Part shown: piece after piece, positions 26,742-51,707 of the stretch
How positions within the stretch are numbered: position 1 is the stretch's first letter
Layout: the number at the start of each line of letters is the position of its first letter
IMG/VR virus record: IMGVR_UViG_3300017917_003143
Coordinates: 66,095 to 130,094 of that record
Strand: one strand, 5' to 3'
Length of the DNA: 64,000 nucleotides
Source of the DNA: a virus
Translations under genes and position numbers: made by a program
The notes under the pieces: generated by a model
What the model was told of the DNA's origin: nothing
Database searches by the model: none
The model's input: the letters and a program-made list of their open reading frames with translations, nothing else

Positions 26742-26933
26742 ATGTTTAAAAAAATGCGTGATGCACTCTTGGTAGCAGGTATCATACTTTTGGCCATTGC
26801 CATGTTTGCCTTTATTGTTTGGTCTAGTACCTTACAACCTCGCGAGCAACGTATTGACTGTACCTGGAGCGAGATCTCTCCTGATTTTTCACCCGCCATG
26901 CGTGAAGCATGCAGAAAGGCAAGAAGTAAATGA
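26742..26933 (+). CDS. 63-aa membrane/periplasmic phage protein
   Basis: MFKKMRDALLVAGIILLAIAMF: a signal-anchor followed by a periplasmic tail with a Cys and the block ISPDFSPAMREACRK, which I know from similar small phage proteins of unknown function. There is no ribosome-binding site and the ATG sits at the predicted transcription start. A second ATG at 26754 is an alternative. Confidence 0.72.
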   Translation: MFKKMRDALLVAGIILLAIAMFAFIVWSSTLQPREQRIDCTWSEISPDFSPAMREACRKARSK

Positions 26934-27316
26934 CCATGCATCTCGAAGGCCCTTGGCTGTCAACCACAGGTAAGAAAAAAGGTAAGAAAAAATGGGCATC
27001 AGCTGAAGCCAAGCGCAAGGCTGAACAACTAGACGAGTCCTGGAAAGAAATGCTCAAGCGCCACGGCATAGAGCAAGAAAAGAAGCGAAAGAATCGCGCC
27101 ATGACTGCAGAAACATGGAAGCCTGCCCCTTCTGTTTTTCGCAGAGAAACACCGCGCATCAACAGTTTACCTTTCACTGGTGGTCCTTGTACCAAGCCTG
27201 CTGAAAAAGTCTATACCGGTACCAAGATCAAAGGCATCGGTACCATGCACAAATCCAATGCGGTGCCTATCTTCAGCGATGAAGAAGCAGTGGCCATCGC
27301 GACTATGAGACGATGA
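26930..27316 (+). CDS. conserved T4-like phage protein
   Basis: A 128-aa basic protein, ATGA-linked to the upstream gene. It reads LEGPWLSTTGKKKGKKKWASAEA, then INSLPFTGGPCTKP and GIGTMHKSNAVPIFSDEEAV. These blocks occur, as far as I know, in a widespread phage family of unknown function. No membrane segment. Confidence 0.8.
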   Translation: MTMHLEGPWLSTTGKKKGKKKWASAEAKRKAEQLDESWKEMLKRHGIEQEKKRKNRAMTAETWKPAPSVFRRETPRINSLPFTGGPCTKPAEKVYTGTKIKGIGTMHKSNAVPIFSDEEAVAIATMRR

Positions 27317-27317
27317 T

Positions 27318-27548
27318 ATGGAACAAATTTGGCAAGCAACTCTAGACGATCGTTATGACTGCCGCGTCGAGCGCATCAACGAAGCACATGGAAACCTTAC
27401 AGTCACTGATACAACAGACAAAAAAATACTTCTTTCGCGAGAAGTCACACTCGCCTACGGAGCAAGATTCGGCCCCGATGTGGACGATGTGGCTGATTGG
27501 GAAGTATGGTGCGTCCAAGCAGTCGACGGCATACCAGATACCCAATGA
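27318..27548 (+). CDS. hypothetical 76-aa protein
   Basis: Starts two bases after the previous stop. Beta-rich (MEQIWQATLDDRYDCRVERI, GNLTVTDTTD), acidic. Similar short proteins appear in other phages, function unknown. Confidence 0.68.
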   Translation: MEQIWQATLDDRYDCRVERINEAHGNLTVTDTTDKKILLSREVTLAYGARFGPDVDDVADWEVWCVQAVDGIPDTQ

Positions 27549-27595
27549 TTACCATCCAGGAAATCTCAGGCGCCAATGGCAGGGTAGTAGAGTGA
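27545..27595 (+). CDS. possible 16-aa micro-ORF joining two genes
   Basis: ATG at 27545 overlaps the previous stop (ATGA), and the 16-codon frame MITIQEISGANGRVVE ends in a TGA that overlaps the GTG start of the next gene (GTGA). It would carry ribosomes across an otherwise untranslated 43-base gap. It may be a coupling device rather than a functional peptide. Confidence 0.4.
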   Translation: MITIQEISGANGRVVE

Positions 27596-27840
27596 CTGTA
27601 AAAAGCGAATATCGCGCAGATGTAGACTACACCTATCCAGTGCGCCTTGACTGGGAAAACAACCCTCACATGGAACACTGGAACGAAGTTTGTGCTTGGG
27701 CAGTAGAACATTTTGGACTACCGGGGCACAGATATCGCACAGAAATAACCAAAGACTACATGACGTGGTACTTTATTGAATCTGAAGATCAACTCATTAT
27801 GACATTAGCATGGGGAAACGACAATGGCATTGACATTTGA
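27592..27840 (+). CDS. hypothetical 82-aa protein, GTG start
   Basis: GTG at 27592 overlaps the end of the micro-ORF. The protein (YRADVDYTYPVRLDWENNPHMEHWNEVCAWAVEHFG) is Trp-rich and acidic. It overlaps the next gene by 17 bases. Not recognised. Confidence 0.65.
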   Translation: MTVKSEYRADVDYTYPVRLDWENNPHMEHWNEVCAWAVEHFGLPGHRYRTEITKDYMTWYFIESEDQLIMTLAWGNDNGIDI

Positions 27841-28192
27841 ACAGCAATCAGTATGGAATCGTTTAAACGATCAACCAGGAAACTACTACGAACATAGCGC
27901 AGAGCCCGAGCGCGAAGAGTTTCGACGTTTCATGAAGGGCATCTTGCAAGACGGACCTGTTTTGGTAGAATTCACCAAGGCCGATGGATCCACACGGGTG
28001 ATGAATTGTACACTCAGTGAGGACCATGGTGCTAAGTACATCGTGAAAGAAAACAAAGAAGTGCCCGTAGAAAAAGCACACCTTCCTGCCAAAGTAAACA
28101 ACGATGTCTGCAAGATCTGGGATATCGAGCAAGGCGCCTGGCGCAGTTTCCGTTGGGATCGGCTACAAAGGATCGAGTTTAAAATTGGCTAA
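27824..28192 (+). CDS. WYL_2-type Sm/SH3-fold protein
   Basis: A 122-aa protein. The segment [23 protein letters not shown] and, at the end, [21 protein letters not shown] match the layout of the short phage family annotated as WYL_2 (Sm-like SH3 beta-barrel). The N-terminal 40 residues are helical. Such proteins are thought to bind nucleic acid or ligands; function unknown. Ends eight bases inside the IF-1 gene. Confidence 0.68.
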
Positions 28193-28403
28193 AGAAGAAG
28201 GTATCAAAATGGAAGGCACAGTCACGGATGTGCTTCCCAATGCTATGTTCCGTGTAAAAGTGGACAACATTGAAAAAGAAGTCATGGGTATTATTTCTGG
28301 TAAGATGCGCATGAACAACATCAAAATTCTATTAGGTGATCGTGTAGAAATTGAATTTTCAGCATACGATCTAACCAAAGGACGTATCACACGACGCCGG
28401 TAA
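28185..28403 (+). CDS. infA: translation initiation factor IF-1
   Basis: A 72-aa protein, exactly the length of bacterial IF-1, starting at TTG 28185. It reads (M)[19 protein letters not shown], collinear with the start of E. coli IF-1, then HISGKMRK-like [19 protein letters not shown] and YDLTKGRI. This is the single S1-like OB-fold that occupies the ribosomal A site and works with IF2 and IF3 in start selection. AAGGATCGAG lies upstream. It overlaps the previous gene by eight bases, so it is translationally coupled. Host-derived copies in phages are uncommon; a phage factor could bias initiation toward its own mRNAs. Confidence 0.93.
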
Positions 28404-28406
28404 ATA
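28401..28406 (+). promoter_or_regulatory. late-type promoter TAAATA
   Basis: TAAATA overlapping the infA stop; five bases separate it from the ATG of the next gene, so that mRNA should be leaderless. No ribosome-binding site is present. Confidence 0.6.
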
Positions 28407-28411
28407 GTAGT

Positions 28412-28984
28412 ATGGATACCGCCGCATCAATAGCAGAATTTATCAATTTAGTAGAAGCAACTACTCGTCCAGCCAAGCTGGAAACCACTCCTTTGCCTTA
28501 TGGCGTCAAGGACCTTGATCCTGTGATGAGTGAAAAAACGCTGGATTACCATTACGAACATCTGGCCCGAGGTTACGCCAAACGCTACAATGCAGGAGAA
28601 GGCAATGCGGATTTTAATCGTGCTGGCAGTTTTTTACACAATATGTTCTTCCCTCAGCTTAGGGCTCCTAAAAGCCCAAACCGCCCACGGGGTTCCAGCC
28701 TACAACTCATTGAAATGAAGTTCAAGGACTTTGATGCTTTCAAAGATGCTGTAAAAGAAACAGCGATGAAAATACAAGGATCGGGCTGGGTGTATCTTTC
28801 CACTACCGGCGAAATCAAGACCATAAAGAATCATGCTGTGCGCACTGATATAGCCCTACTTATTGATTGGTGGGAACATGCCTGGGCCCTGGATTATCAA
28901 AGCGACAAAGAATCCTACTTAAACAATATCTGGAAGATCATCAACTGGGACGTGGTCAACGAACGCATTGGTGTGATAGGATAA
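28412..28984 (+). CDS. Fe/Mn-family superoxide dismutase-like protein
   Basis: A 190-aa protein with all four metal ligands of Fe/Mn SOD: His47 (DYHYEHL), His76 (FLHNMFF), Asp152 and His156 (IDWWEHA), plus the active-site tyrosine equivalent Tyr55. The N-terminus has about 26 extra residues before LPYGVKDLDP. Gly72 (Mn-type) and His141 (where MnSOD has Gln) form an unusual outer sphere. The protein should convert superoxide to peroxide; a structural role in the virion is an alternative for phage members. Starts five bases after a TAAATA promoter without a ribosome-binding site. Confidence 0.86.
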   Translation: MDTAASIAEFINLVEATTRPAKLETTPLPYGVKDLDPVMSEKTLDYHYEHLARGYAKRYNAGEGNADFNRAGSFLHNMFFPQLRAPKSPNRPRGSSLQLIEMKFKDFDAFKDAVKETAMKIQGSGWVYLSTTGEIKTIKNHAVRTDIALLIDWWEHAWALDYQSDKESYLNNIWKIINWDVVNERIGVIG

Positions 28985-28987
28985 AGT

Positions 28988-29311
28988 ATGCAGTTAACGG
29001 AATCGGCGCAGACCAAAATCAAAGACATTTTCGCAGAAGAAAACAACCCCAATCTCAAGCTCAGGGTGTTTGTACAAGGTGGTGGATGTTCGGGTTTCCA
29101 ATACGGTTTTACCTTTGACGAAGAAAAAAACGACGACGATTTCAGCCAGGATTATGACGGTGTAGAAGTCCTGATCGATTCCATGAGCTGGCAATATCTA
29201 CACGGTGCCACCGTGGACTACAAAGACGATGTCATGGGTAGCAGTTTTGTCATAGAAAATCCCAACGCACAAAGCACTTGCGGTTGCGGTAGCAGTTTCT
29301 CACCATATTGA
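28988..29311 (+). CDS. A-type Fe-S carrier (IscA/ErpA family)
   Basis: A 107-aa protein with the three conserved cysteines of A-type carriers: Cys34 ([11 protein letters not shown]), Cys98 and Cys100 (STCGCGSSF). These proteins hold and deliver Fe-S clusters to apo-enzymes. The phage itself encodes Fe-S clients: a 7Fe ferredoxin and two radical SAM enzymes. It lies three bases behind the SOD gene, so the two are co-expressed. ErpA and IscA cannot be told apart from this sequence. Confidence 0.93.
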
Positions 29312-29318
29312 TCCAATC

Positions 29319-29353
29319 AGCCTATTCCGGTAAATATACAAAAGGAATAGGCT
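29319..29353 (+). promoter_or_regulatory. late promoter inside an RBS-sequestering hairpin
   Basis: AGCCTATTCC (29319-29328) and GGAATAGGCT (29344-29353) are perfect 10-bp arms. The right arm contains the GGAA ribosome-binding site of the fibre gene (ATG 29357). TAAATA (29331-29336) lies in the loop, so RNA from it starts near 29342 and lacks the left arm. Confidence 0.7.
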
Positions 29354-29356
29354 ACA

Positions 29357-32300
29357 ATGACCCAACAAATCATCAACATTGGTGCGACTCCGGATGATGG
29401 AGATGGCGATAATCTACGCACCGCATTTAACAAAGTAAACGAAAATTTTTCCAATGTTTGGGCACAAGGACCCGTTGATTCCAACATCCGTATACAAGGT
29501 AATATTATTTCTACCTTGCAGGTCAACCAAGATCTTGCACTCAGCCCCAATGGTGTGGGCAATGTACGCTTAAACAACAACACTATTCCTGGCGCAAATA
29601 ACACATGGTTTTTAGGATCAACTACTAATCGCTGGCGCGGTCTTTTCGTAGGCAATGTCACAGCCGGTAATGTGACCATAAATGATGGACTGACAGTACC
29701 CGGTGATGCCTACATTGGTGGCAATCTTACTGTGGTGGGCAACACCATACAGATTGGTAATATCACCACAGACACCAAAACTATACAGTTGGCCAACACA
29801 GCACTGACAGACGGTGCTGCCAACGGTGCCGGCATCACAGTAGGTGCTAACGATGACATAGCCACGTTCCTTTACGAGTCTGGTAACAATGTTTGGACCA
29901 CAAACATTGGCCTACAAGTGGGCGGACCAATCACAGGTACCTCCATTGCAGTCAGCGATGCCACAATCTACGGTAATGTAGACGCTGTCAATGGCAACTT
30001 TACAGGCAATGTCACTGCCAACTATTTCATTGGTGATGGTAGCCAACTTACAGGTATTGAAACTGGTGTAACTATATCTAACACAGCACCTGCATTGGGC
30101 AATGGTGGTGTTTGGTGGAACTCAGTGGACGGTCGTGCCTATGTAAAATACAATAGCCAGTTCATTGATCTTAGCCCCAGTTTGATACCAGATCCCACAA
30201 CTTATGTAGGCAACGTGGTATTTGACGACTTGACCATAGAGAACGTGGGCAACATCTTGCCTGCTACGACCAATGCTTATAGTTTGGGCAGTGCCGGTTT
30301 CCAGTGGAAAGACCTCTGGGTATCAAACTCCACCATCTACATGAATTCTGTACCTATTGGGTTGACATCGGCTAATGTTCTCACTGTTAATGGCGAACCC
30401 ATACTGTCTAACAACAGCACCACTTCGATCACTACCACAGGCAACATCACAGCTGATTACTTGTTTGGCAACGGTAGCCAACTCACTGGACTCAATACCA
30501 ACCGAATACTCAATGGCACTAGCAATGTAGAGATAGCCACCGCCGATGGCAATGTCACGGTCACAGCCAACGGTTCTTCGACTTGGACTTTTGATACCAC
30601 AGGTAACCTGATCACCCCAGCCAATCTGGTGATTGGTCCTTCTCCTGCTGGCGGTTCGAGCATTCTTCAATATGATTCTGCTCTCCAAGTGGTTGGCGAA
30701 GGTGCTAATGCCATAATGGTCATGGGTTGGGCCGCAAATACCAATGCTCCAGACAGTATAGCGGTAGTTGGATTCAATACTCCATATACCAACGGTGCCA
30801 GCAATGTGCTGATCGCAGTGGGCAACAATGCAACCACTGTCAACTACTGGAACTTTGATGACACTGGCAACTTGTCATTGCCTGCCAATGGCATCATCAG
30901 TGATACAGCCAACGGCATTGGATTAACTGTTGAAAATCCACCAACCACGATAGATATCATTGGTGCAGATTTTGTTGCAGTGAATTTAACTTACACCAGA
31001 GACTTAGGCGAAGCGACTCCAACCTGGATTCCGGCCGGTTATACTCCGGGTGTTGATCCTTACATAGAGTTCAGTGGCGGCGAATATGGAATCTTTGTTC
31101 CAGGATTCGGCCAAGCACTCTATGTCAACACTGGAACTATCACGGCTCCGTTGGCACAGTGGAATATCAACCCTCCACTGGGCAGTGTTCCGCCCACAGG
31201 TGTGTATACCTACAGCAATCCTGAGTGGACCTTTGATGCCACCGGTAATCTAACCATACCTGGAACTCTGATTGTTACCACGGGCATTGTTGGATCTGGG
31301 GCTAGCCCAGCACCCAGCATCAACGGTTTCCTAGATGCGTCATTCATTGGTAATGTTACCGCTGACTATTTCATTGGTGATGGATCACAACTCACGGGCC
31401 TGCCTGCAGGATACACCGACTCAGATGTTGCCAACTTGCTGGCTAACTTTGGCAGCAACTCTATCTCAACTACAGGCAACATTGACTCGGGTAATATCAG
31501 CACCACATATATCTATGGCGATACCACTGAAGCCAATGTGTTCCAAGGTGGATCAGCCAACATCGCAGGCAACATCATAGCCGGTAACTTCGTAGGGTCT
31601 GGAGCCAACGTAGACATCGTTGCTGGTAGCTATGACTGGACTTTCGTCAATGATGGCAACTTGGTACTGCCCGGCAACACTTTTGCTGTAAAATACGCCA
31701 ATGGTGTAGCAGTGAGCTTGGGCGGCAACTACAGTGATTCAAATGTAGTGTCATTGTTGGGTGCTTTTGGTTCTAATACCATAACAACCACGGGTAATAT
31801 TAGTGCAGGTTACTTTGTAGGTAACGGCAGTTTGCTCACCGGCGTGGCTAACTCAGCATTTACTACAGTATCAGCCAATGGTACATCATTGGTAGCAGAC
31901 AGTGCCTCGGACACAGTGACATTCACTCCGGGCAACAACTTGGTCATAACAGGCACAGCTGGCACAGACACAGTGACTTTTGCTGTAAACGATGCTCCGA
32001 CATTTACCGGCAACGTCACAGCGCAGAACTTTATTGGTAATATCACTATCACAGGCAATGTCACAGGCACCAGTGCCAACGTTGATATTGTAGCTGGCTC
32101 TTATCAGTGGACATTTAATAATGCAGGTAATCTTGTGTTGCCAGGCAACACATTCACAGTAAACTATGCCAATGGTACAGCAGTATCGTTGGGTGGAGGT
32201 GGTGGCGGCACACCTGGTGGGTCTGATACACAAGTACAGTTCAATGACGGTGGCTCGTTTGGAGGAGATTCTGGATTTACATATAACAAGACTACCGATG

Positions 32301-33802
32301 CCTTGTCAGTGACTGGTAACATCACTGGTGCCAACTTGACCACTGCTGGTAATGTTGCATTTACAGCTAACAGTGGTGCTATAGCATTTAACACTGGTGC
32401 TTATATCAGTGGCAATGGTGCCCCAATCTCTAGAGAAGGCAGTATTGTTCTATCACCTTACACAGGTGCAGGATCTACATTCCCAGGCGTTGTGATTGGC
32501 GGTGCTGGTAGATTGATTGCTCCAAACGGTGGCGTATTCCAGATATTCAATGCGGCAGATGTTACTTTCCAAGTAGCAACTAAAATAACAGCGGGAACGG
32601 CCGCAACATCAACTACATCAGGTGCATTACAAGTCACAGGCGGCGCTGGTATAACTGGTAATATCTATGCAGGCGGTAACATCAGCGCAGTCGGCAATAC
32701 CACAACAGGTATTGGTGCTGTGGTAGCTGGTCCTACAAATACCTTGCTGGCCAATACTGTGGCAGGATTCACAGGCAACGTCAACAACTATACACAAGTC
32801 ACGTTCCAGAATAAGAACACAGGTGCAGACGCCACTGCTGACTTTATCCTTACAGCAGACAACGGCAACGACTCAACCAACTACGGTGACTTTGGGATCA
32901 TCAACTCGGGTTATGATCCCAACACACCTACCAACAGCTTGGGTAACATCGTCTACGCCGCAGATACTTACGTCTACGCACAGGGCAATATCTCTAACAC
33001 CAGCCAGGCAGGTGGTAACCTTGTGATAGGTGTGACAACACCAACTAAGGCAGTGAAGATCTTTGCGGGCGGTGTTGATAATAACTATCTTGTGGCCAAC
33101 ATCAGCAACACTGGTGTTGCTGTCACAGGTGCTGTCAGTGCCACAGGCAACGTCACAGGCAACTATTTCTTAGGCAATATCAGCCAAGCCACAGGCGGTT
33201 ATGGCAATGCCAACGTAGTAGCCAACCTGGCTGCCTTGGGCACTAACCCAATCGTTAGCAACGCTAACATCAGTGGTGCTACCTTGTACTCAACCAATGC
33301 TTCAGGCGACGAAGGTGGTGAAATACAACTGACCAAACCGCCCAATGGTACACTTTCGGGCGGTATAACCATTGATGCTTATCAGAATCGATTCAGAGTA
33401 TTCGAGCAGGGCGGAACTGCTAGAGGTATGTATATTGATCTTGCTAATAGCCCTGCTGGTGTAGGAGCAGCCATTGGTTACAGAGACATTCCACAGGTAA
33501 GTTTGGCAGCCAATACCACGATCACTACATCAGATGCTGGCAAACACTACTATTCAACATCAGCATCCGCACTCACACTGACCATAGCCAACAACGCCAG
33601 CCAAGGATTCCAGATTGGTGCTACTCTTAACATCATCAACCAGGGCGCAGGCAACGTGTCAGTGTTGCGTGGCGTGGGCGTTACCATGTATCTTGCAGGT
33701 AACTCAACATCATCAGATCGTACGCTGACATCATATGGTGTAGCATCCATCACAAAGGTCTCAACAGATACTTGGTTCATCAGCGGTGTGGGGTTGATCT
33801 AA
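29357..33802 (+). CDS. large tail-fibre/receptor-binding structural protein
   Basis: A 1481-aa protein. The N-terminus MTQQIINIGATPDDGDGDNLRTAFNK is an attachment-type segment shared with 39360. The body is made of beta-rich repeats: NVTADYFIGDGSQLTGL-like units (about four), and WTFDxxGNLxxP units; a block of about 43 residues (ANVDIVAGSY...AVSLGG) occurs twice. The C-terminus is of the type that folds by trimerisation, with no recognised chaperone or protease motif. It likely forms a long fibre or spike. Translation is set by the hairpin just upstream. Length suits a myovirus long tail fibre or an adhesin. Confidence 0.85.
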   Translation: MTQQIINIGATPDDGDGDNLRTAFNKVNENFSNVWAQGPVDSNIRIQGNIISTLQVNQDLALSPNGVGNVRLNNNTIPGANNTWFLGSTTNRWRGLFVGNVTAGNVTINDGLTVPGDAYIGGNLTVVGNTIQIGNITTDTKTIQLANTALTDGAANGAGITVGANDDIATFLYESGNNVWTTNIGLQVGGPITGTSIAVSDATIYGNVDAVNGNFTGNVTANYFIGDGSQLTGIETGVTISNTAPALGNGGVWWNSVDGRAYVKYNSQFIDLSPSLIPDPTTYVGNVVFDDLTIENVGNILPATTNAYSLGSAGFQWKDLWVSNSTIYMNSVPIGLTSANVLTVNGEPILSNNSTTSITTTGNITADYLFGNGSQLTGLNTNRILNGTSNVEIATADGNVTVTANGSSTWTFDTTGNLITPANLVIGPSPAGGSSILQYDSALQVVGEGANAIMVMGWAANTNAPDSIAVVGFNTPYTNGASNVLIAVGNNATTVNYWNFDDTGNLSLPANGIISDTANGIGLTVENPPTTIDIIGADFVAVNLTYTRDLGEATPTWIPAGYTPGVDPYIEFSGGEYGIFVPGFGQALYVNTGTITAPLAQWNINPPLGSVPPTGVYTYSNPEWTFDATGNLTIPGTLIVTTGIVGSGASPAPSINGFLDASFIGNVTADYFIGDGSQLTGLPAGYTDSDVANLLANFGSNSISTTGNIDSGNISTTYIYGDTTEANVFQGGSANIAGNIIAGNFVGSGANVDIVAGSYDWTFVNDGNLVLPGNTFAVKYANGVAVSLGGNYSDSNVVSLLGAFGSNTITTTGNISAGYFVGNGSLLTGVANSAFTTVSANGTSLVADSASDTVTFTPGNNLVITGTAGTDTVTFAVNDAPTFTGNVTAQNFIGNITITGNVTGTSANVDIVAGSYQWTFNNAGNLVLPGNTFTVNYANGTAVSLGGGGGGTPGGSDTQVQFNDGGSFGGDSGFTYNKTTDALSVTGNITGANLTTAGNVAFTANSGAIAFNTGAYISGNGAPISREGSIVLSPYTGAGSTFPGVVIGGAGRLIAPNGGVFQIFNAADVTFQVATKITAGTAATSTTSGALQVTGGAGITGNIYAGGNISAVGNTTTGIGAVVAGPTNTLLANTVAGFTGNVNNYTQVTFQNKNTGADATADFILTADNGNDSTNYGDFGIINSGYDPNTPTNSLGNIVYAADTYVYAQGNISNTSQAGGNLVIGVTTPTKAVKIFAGGVDNNYLVANISNTGVAVTGAVSATGNVTGNYFLGNISQATGGYGNANVVANLAALGTNPIVSNANISGATLYSTNASGDEGGEIQLTKPPNGTLSGGITIDAYQNRFRVFEQGGTARGMYIDLANSPAGVGAAIGYRDIPQVSLAANTTITTSDAGKHYYSTSASALTLTIANNASQGFQIGATLNIINQGAGNVSVLRGVGVTMYLAGNSTSSDRTLTSYGVASITKVSTDTWFISGVGLI

Positions 33803-50055: not shown

Positions 50056-50575
50056 AGGACTTAATTACAAAGATCTCGTGGGCATGATGAAGCCCACTAT
50101 CCACATCGACGAATTTTCGTCAAAAATGGGTGACGACGACGAAATCGTTGTTGCTTCTTTCTTTGTGCGCGATCGACAGGCAGCCAAGGATCTTGTCAAT
50201 TGGTTTGAAAAGGGCTATGACTTTGTGATAGATTCAGACATGAGTCCTGGTGAAATCAAGCCCAATCGCTATCTTGTGTATGTAGAAATGAAACGCAGAT
50301 CTACCACCGGCGAGCGCCTGAACGAGATCATTGAAGATTTCAGCACTCTCACGGAGTACGAAGGATCAAACTGGGTCATGCACTATCGTGGTAAAGACAT
50401 TCCTTGGTCAGTAGAAGCGTTCAACAGCCAAGTGCCAACCAGCCCCAACGAATATCGTAAAAAAGTCGAAAGCGAACTCAATGAAATGCGTCATGCGTCA
50501 GGCATTCCTGTCAAGCAGATCTATGAGCGCGAATCAGACATCAAAAGTTTACAGAGCGCCGCTGGACTGCTGTAA
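50039..50575 (+). CDS. conserved phage protein, GTG start
   Basis: A 178-aa protein starting GTG at 50039, overlapping the upstream gene. (M)RQLSEGLNYKDLVGMMKP then IHIDEFSSKMGDDDEIVVASFFV and SPGEIKPNRYLVYVEMKRRST match a family of T4-like phages of unknown role, possibly virion-related. Its stop overlaps the TAAATA of the next promoter. Confidence 0.78.
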   Translation: MRQLSEGLNYKDLVGMMKPTIHIDEFSSKMGDDDEIVVASFFVRDRQAAKDLVNWFEKGYDFVIDSDMSPGEIKPNRYLVYVEMKRRSTTGERLNEIIEDFSTLTEYEGSNWVMHYRGKDIPWSVEAFNSQVPTSPNEYRKKVESELNEMRHASGIPVKQIYERESDIKSLQSAAGLL

Positions 50576-50578
50576 ATA
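50573..50578 (+). promoter_or_regulatory. late-type promoter TAAATA
   Basis: TAAATA overlapping the previous stop, four bases before the GTG start at 50583: leaderless layout. Confidence 0.58.
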
Positions 50579-50582
50579 GTAG

Positions 50583-51707
50583 GTGACTGACACCTACTGC
50601 CCACTACCATTCCGACATGTTTTTATCGAGCCCAGGGGAATCAAACCCTGTTGCTCCTACACCAAAATGTTCAACGGCTCAGTTGAACAATGGTTGTCCA
50701 GTGCTGAACTCGCAGAATTACAATCAAACATAAACAGTGGTCAAGTAGACCCAGGCTGCCGTTATTGCATCAATGGTGAAAAACAGGATGGATCCAGCAC
50801 ACGCCTGGGTGCTATCAGTGACTATGGCGATATTGAAAAGGTCACCGAGATCGATTATGTCGACTATCGATCCATCAATATTTGTAATTTCCGTTGTCGT
50901 TCATGCGATCCTTTTTACAGCAATGGCATAGCTCAGGAAGCTAGGCGCTATCCTGAGCTACAGAAATTCTATCCCATTCCTGAGTACAAAACAGCATCCA
51001 CACAAACACAAGACAAGCAATGGGTGCTGGCCAACATCAACAAGATAAAAAAATTGATGTTTACCGGTGGTGAACCCACACGCATACCAGAAGTCCGAGA
51101 AATAATCGAACATGTCAGGAACACTGGAAACAGAGATATCTCTATAATGATAACCAGTAATGCCAGCTTTACTGATCCTTACTGGTTTGAAATCACCGAG
51201 AGCATGCCCAACATACATTGGACACTGAGTGTTGATTCTGTGGGCACTGCCGCAGAAATAATAAGAGATGGTACAGACTGGTCAGTGGTCAGCTACAACG
51301 TAGAACGTATGTTTGACATCTCCCCCAGCGTGAACGTGGGCACTGTGGTCACTAATTTAAACTTGACACAGTTAGATCTATTGTTTGCTTGGGTCAATGA
51401 TCTCAAAGAAAAATACGATCACCGAGCCAACGGCCGGACACAGCTGATTGAAATATGCAATTGGCCCCAGTTCCTTAGTCCCTACAACTGGCCCGAAGAT
51501 CGCAGATCAAGCATCGTCACGTTTTTAGAAACTCTTTGCGAGCAAGAGAATCTCCAGGAAAAACAAAAACACATCGCTGAAACACTGCTGTCAAATATAA
51601 AAAATTCCATCCCTGATCCCAAGCTATGGGCCGAGTTTGAATCCTACAATAAAACCCTGGATAATGTAAGAAATCAAGATCACACCCTGCTACTGGAAAC
51701 ACACTGA
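50583..51707 (+). CDS. twitch-domain radical SAM enzyme (copy 2)
   Basis: A 374-aa radical SAM protein. The CxxxCxxC cluster is Cys101, Cys105 and Cys108 (NICNFRCRSC), followed by FTGGEPTRI (the GGE motif). Ahead of it is a twitch module with Cys6, Cys23, Cys24, Cys59 and Cys62. It shares the layout of the enzyme at 3412. The start is GTG, four bases after TAAATA, so it should be translated from a leaderless mRNA. Substrate unknown; likely a peptide or virion component. Confidence 0.88.
   Translation: MTDTYCPLPFRHVFIEPRGIKPCCSYTKMFNGSVEQWLSSAELAELQSNINSGQVDPGCRYCINGEKQDGSSTRLGAISDYGDIEKVTEIDYVDYRSINICNFRCRSCDPFYSNGIAQEARRYPELQKFYPIPEYKTASTQTQDKQWVLANINKIKKLMFTGGEPTRIPEVREIIEHVRNTGNRDISIMITSNASFTDPYWFEITESMPNIHWTLSVDSVGTAAEIIRDGTDWSVVSYNVERMFDISPSVNVGTVVTNLNLTQLDLLFAWVNDLKEKYDHRANGRTQLIEICNWPQFLSPYNWPEDRRSSIVTFLETLCEQENLQEKQKHIAETLLSNIKNSIPDPKLWAEFESYNKTLDNVRNQDHTLLLETH

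Follow-up and report, generated by a model that had tools for sequence, protein, structure and literature searches.

The 64,000-nt window analyzed here is part of a phage record of 343,632 bases (genome label G000). On its + strand, a gene for an Fe/Mn superoxide dismutase (SOD; 28412..28984; PF02777, 3.4e-23) is followed by a gene for an IscA/ErpA-type Fe-S carrier (28988..29311; PF01521, 5.6e-20) and by an ORF of 1481 aa (29357..33802). The ORF is repeat-rich, lies near tail-fibre-type genes and has no confident family assignment, and we refer to it as fibre-like. The SOD gene adjoins the erpA-type gene at 28412-29311, and the order erpA-fibre is kept in several uncultured phages. Between the two latter genes, the stretch 29319-29359 reads AGCCTATTCC-GGTAAATATACAAAA-GGAATAGGCT-ACA-ATG, in which the left arm AGCCTATTCC (29319..29328, +) and the right arm GGAATAGGCT (29344..29353, +) form a perfect inverted repeat of 10 bp around a 15-nt loop, GGTAAATATACAAAA (29329..29343, +). 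Between the erpA stop codon and the left arm lie 7 nt, and the spacer ACA separates the right arm from the ATG at 29357.

The earlier note had proposed that a perfect 10-bp stem carries TAAATA in its loop and hides the Shine-Dalgarno sequence of this gene. The first part proved exact (29319-29328/29344-29353, with TAAATA at 29331-29336), while the second held in part: the Shine-Dalgarno–like AAAAGGA (29340..29346, +), placed 10 nt before the ATG, straddles the border between loop and stem, so that its GGA is paired in the right arm and its run of A residues stays in the loop. The AUG falls outside the stem, 3 nt past the right arm, and no T run was found 3' of the stem. Perfect stems of at least 10 bp that enclose a loop of 8-25 nt are more numerous in the genome (22 distinct) than in Markov-1 simulations (6.5). 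The combination of such a hairpin with TAAATA in its loop occurs once in the 343,632 bases, at the 29319 site, and in 0 of 20 simulated genomes.

RNA folding agreed with this layout. The RNA 29300-29372 folds as the predicted hairpin with an energy of -15.6 kcal/mol (z -4.1), and none of 200 shuffled sequences was as stable. In contrast, the RNA 29341-29372 is essentially without structure (-0.6 kcal/mol). In the computed long RNA, the start region is paired through the GGA in the 10-bp stem, and the calculated cost of opening it was 14.6 kcal/mol, as compared to 5.1 kcal/mol in the predicted late RNA. An identical calculation for T4 gene e gave 15.2 kcal/mol for the long and 1.1 kcal/mol for the late RNA. 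T4 soc showed little difference between the two forms, probably because the TAAATA nearest to the gene was used rather than the mapped promoter. The soc value was left out of the opening-energy comparison, as was the family member L162, which was registered at GCT and not at ATG.

Subsequently, we evaluated TAAATA as the core of a T4-type late promoter. The T4 late-promoter octamer occupies positions -13 to -6 (PMC2988020); thus, TAAATA corresponds to -11 to -6, and an ATG at offset 11 from the motif would lie at +1. The offsets from TAAATA to ATG in the genome form one peak at 11 (28 sites at 10-13) and another at 22-31 (33 sites), with few sites at 15-20, so that the core motif keeps a set spacing from gene starts across the genome. 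Other A/T-rich hexamers used as controls showed no such pair of peaks in this genome. Both peaks were also present in three uncultured large phages (G001, G002, and G004) and in HTVC008M, while the short-offset class was weak in P-SSM2. The TAAATA in the loop (29331..29336, +) has its ATG at offset 26, within the second peak, and the motif is kept in all close relatives. The site does not match the whole T4 octamer, TATAAATA; it reads GGTAAATA, with GG in place of TA at -13/-12. Because the match is limited to the core, we call it a T4-type core. The genome encodes a gp55-type late sigma factor (G000:C1:273442; phrog_12791, 1.6e-77; phrog_234, 7.5e-23). A search of the phage for gp45 with the T4 sequence and PF09116/PF02916 gave no match, a negative of little weight at this evolutionary distance. 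Together, these data give good support to TAAATA acting as a late promoter in a T4-like phage that encodes gp55, in agreement with the late promoter that the earlier note had placed in the loop. Based on T4 spacing and the offset-11 peak, transcription would start at 29342 (+), inside the loop and 3' of the left arm, as expected from the claim that RNA from this promoter lacks that arm. The left arm would then be present only in readthrough RNA, and the predicted late leader of 15 nt begins with AAGGA.

Covariation of the two arms in related phages had been named as a test whose failure would speak against the hairpin. We located relatives by the sequence after erpA or before a matching fibre N terminus and found six further distinct stem sequences (L017/L019, L020, L181-L183, L184, L347, and L352), all of which keep GGTAAATA in the loop; L347 and L352 were found by a pattern that fixed the three innermost pairs and left the outer pairs free. 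The arms do covary, with compensatory changes at three pairs: 29319/29353 (A-U to U-A), 29321/29351 (C-G to U-A), and 29324/29348 (A-U to G-C). Changes on both sides filled five cells in the true stem, as compared to 0 or 1 in slid structures. A single stem mismatch is found in L017 and L019 (T-T in L017). A search with the strict subtype pattern TTCTGG...CCAGAGG returned only a known locus, and isolated phages searched with the fibre region of the window, at both DNA and protein level, gave no match.

Many relatives from fresh water and the sea have a promoter-in-hairpin arrangement at their fibre-like gene as well. In distant members of the family, the arms are wholly different, and hairpins around TAAATA are again found (L053, -21.6 kcal/mol; L185, -23.6; L229, -18.2; L197, -16.9). 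To assess this pairing across the family, we compared the duplex between each sequence's own left flank and its right side with a null in which left flanks were swapped between sequences. Among 62 distinct upstream regions with TAAATA, the mean duplex energy was -9.7 as compared to -6.3 after permutation, perfect stems of at least 6 bp were found in 21 (8.3 expected), and strong duplexes (<= -12) in 15 (3.0 expected), with p<=5e-5 for all three measures. The excess persisted without the clade of the window (n=59) and under stricter dereplication (n=46). In contrast, 40 family members without TAAATA showed no pairing excess. Thus, the hairpin belongs to the unit of promoter plus start rather than to the gene start itself, and because the arms vary from gene to gene, it is the pairing and not the sequence that is conserved. 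Two promoter-in-loop hairpins, in L197 (upstream of 1501) and at G004:C1 24026 (- strand), are followed by a T run and might double as intrinsic terminators.

Taken as a whole, the data very probably reflect a late promoter placed in the loop of a hairpin that occludes the start of the fibre-like gene. RNA reading in from upstream would carry both arms, fold, and keep ribosomes off. A polymerase with the gp55-type factor would start at about 29342 in the loop and produce RNA without the left arm, in which the Shine-Dalgarno sequence would be exposed at the extreme 5' end and allow translation. The fibre-like product would in this way come from its own late promoter alone.

Such a block might serve the timing of fibre synthesis or its insulation from upstream transcription, and insulation from late readthrough may be as possible a purpose as a switch between early and late RNA. 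In the insulation version, which differs from the preferred reading in purpose only, the hairpin would prevent fibre translation from a late polycistronic SOD-ErpA RNA, so that its own promoter alone sets the output or dosage; we consider this a real possibility, if at somewhat less than even chances. The nearest promoter-like site upstream is itself a TAAATA (28401..28406, +) with ATG at offset 11, the predicted +1; thus, the RNA entering the hairpin could itself be late, and this site is the likely source of late readthrough. A scan of 26900-29600 found no convincing sigma-70 promoter (2 matches versus 4.1 expected) and no terminator-like site on the + strand. The missing sigma-70 sites carry little weight, however, and layouts of this kind in T4 are explained by early or middle readthrough (PMC3014915, PMC2988022).

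Alternatively, ribosomes ending at erpA could melt the left arm and thereby make fibre translation depend on that of erpA. With 7 nt between the erpA stop codon and the arm, a ribosome terminating there would only just contact it; however, the gap is about 12-13 nt in close relatives, beyond the reach of such a ribosome, and coupling leaves the conserved promoter in the loop without a role. We regard it as unlikely. Slightly less likely still is that the hairpin, which starts 7 nt past the erpA stop codon, chiefly serves the 3' end of the SOD-ErpA mRNA, as a protective or end-defining structure, and overlaps the fibre start incidentally: it tracks TAAATA and the start of the fibre family in many phages, it is absent where TAAATA is absent, and the distance from stop to stem varies. 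An inverted repeat at a promoter might also be an intrinsic terminator or a DNA operator, that is, a palindrome bound by a regulator, and T runs do follow the hairpins of some relatives (L197 and G004 24026). The terminator was rejected at the window stem for want of a T run, and a shared operator would not be expected to have arms that vary among the genes of a single genome with their pairing intact, which leaves this explanation very improbable. Last, a chance palindrome, for which the 22 perfect stems of such size in the genome might speak, has a negligible probability in view of the covariation, the family-wide permutation test, and the 0 of 20 simulated genomes with the motif in a loop.

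When the pairing scan was run on T4, known cases led the ranking, among them I-TevII, gene 26, and gene e, in agreement with the literature. Late genes of the G000 genome had stems of at least 6 bp at 13 sites as compared to 6.6 expected (p 0.012), with a p of 0.07 for mean energy, a modest excess that concerns some genes; at sites of the leaderless type, there were 6 stems versus 1.7 expected (p 0.005), and in several of these the AUG itself takes part in the pairing. G004 alone showed a strong excess, with energies <= -12 at 10 sites versus 1.5, while HTVC008M had no excess of promoter hairpins. Control starts without TAAATA gave no excess in G000, G002, and G004 and some in G001. Because the excess in G000 is modest and raw energies at its TAAATA sites are not below those at its other starts, we do not claim genome-wide use. 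On these computed pairings, the hairpin device is gene-selective, serving chosen genes and not all late genes.

A few other hairpins are common to G000 and G001. At four sites outside the window (G000:C1 208770, 319907, 337589, and 192385), TAAATA lies in the loop and the start codon itself in the right arm; late RNA starting at the AUG or a few bases before it would lose the stem. By eye, we also noted hairpins in which the left arm and the interval from TAAATA to +1 overlap (window 50573-50600; G000:C1 311439 and 209819; L110, L114, and L062). Here, the Shine-Dalgarno sequence or the start codon is in the loop or right arm, which would be another route for late initiation to remove an arm.

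The short-offset peak includes many sites with the ATG exactly at the predicted +1 (offset 11): 14 in G000, 10 in G001, 9 in G002, 10 in G004, and 12 in HTVC008M, with window examples at 28401, 49439, 54580, and 58932. Such spacing points to a group of late mRNAs that lack a leader. T4 itself has no counterpart, as its late promoters are of the leadered class only (offsets 10-13 at 0 of 32 TATAAATA sites). A search that left most subscription literature outside turned up no account of such leaderless mRNAs for T4-like phages. A 2020 study had found late promoters not predictable in pelagimyophages (PMC7029224); with TAAATA as a candidate late-promoter core for such phages, prediction may now be feasible from the +1-ATG pattern in HTVC008M. 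As a tentative generalization, to which we give rather less than an even chance, the late promoter of non-T-even T4-like phages might be a broad translation switch, with many late genes leaderless and a subset, fibre genes above all, carrying the promoter in hairpins that hide the Shine-Dalgarno sequence or AUG, so that readthrough RNA would be silent by design.

By analogy, the fibre-like gene most likely works like T4 e, soc, 49, and the homing endonuclease genes. In T4 e, soc, 49, and I-TevI, a hairpin sequestering the ribosome binding site (RBS) is relieved by a late promoter (PMC3014915, PMC2988022), and the T4 precedents that the earlier note had invoked for e, soc, and 49 are correct (PMC3014915, PMC2988022). 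The literature searched places this device in T-even-type phages; nothing in it described the device in a fibre gene of a T4-like phage, whether jumbo, pelagic, or freshwater, with most subscription literature outside the search. Thus, the mechanism is already known, while the member, the gene, and the breadth of phages are new within the literature searched.

In T4 gene e, too, the start is hidden by a hairpin whose 5' part holds the late promoter, and the late leader is short (PMC3014915); the computed opening cost for e is also strongly lower in the late RNA. Gene e is, in contrast, a lysis gene (lysozyme) with the full TATAAATA and experimental proof of an about 100-fold effect, whereas the window case is a fibre-like gene with the TAAATA core only, known here from its sequence. 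T4 soc, 49, I-TevI, I-TevII, I-TevIII, and segB and Aeh1 mobE work alike, in that a late promoter frees a sequestered RBS (PMC2988022, PMC3014915); however, these are endonucleases or small head or recombination genes of T-even-type phages, whereas the gene in the window is a large one of structural type in distant jumbo T4-like phages. Genes 25 and 26 of T4 are late baseplate, and hence structural, genes with inhibitory structure in the initiation region (PMC2988022), although they have no sequence or gene relation to the fibre family. The window case thus puts the device on a structural-type gene and makes it findable by sequence in uncultured phages; known mostly from T-even phages, the device would be either old or repeatedly evolved.
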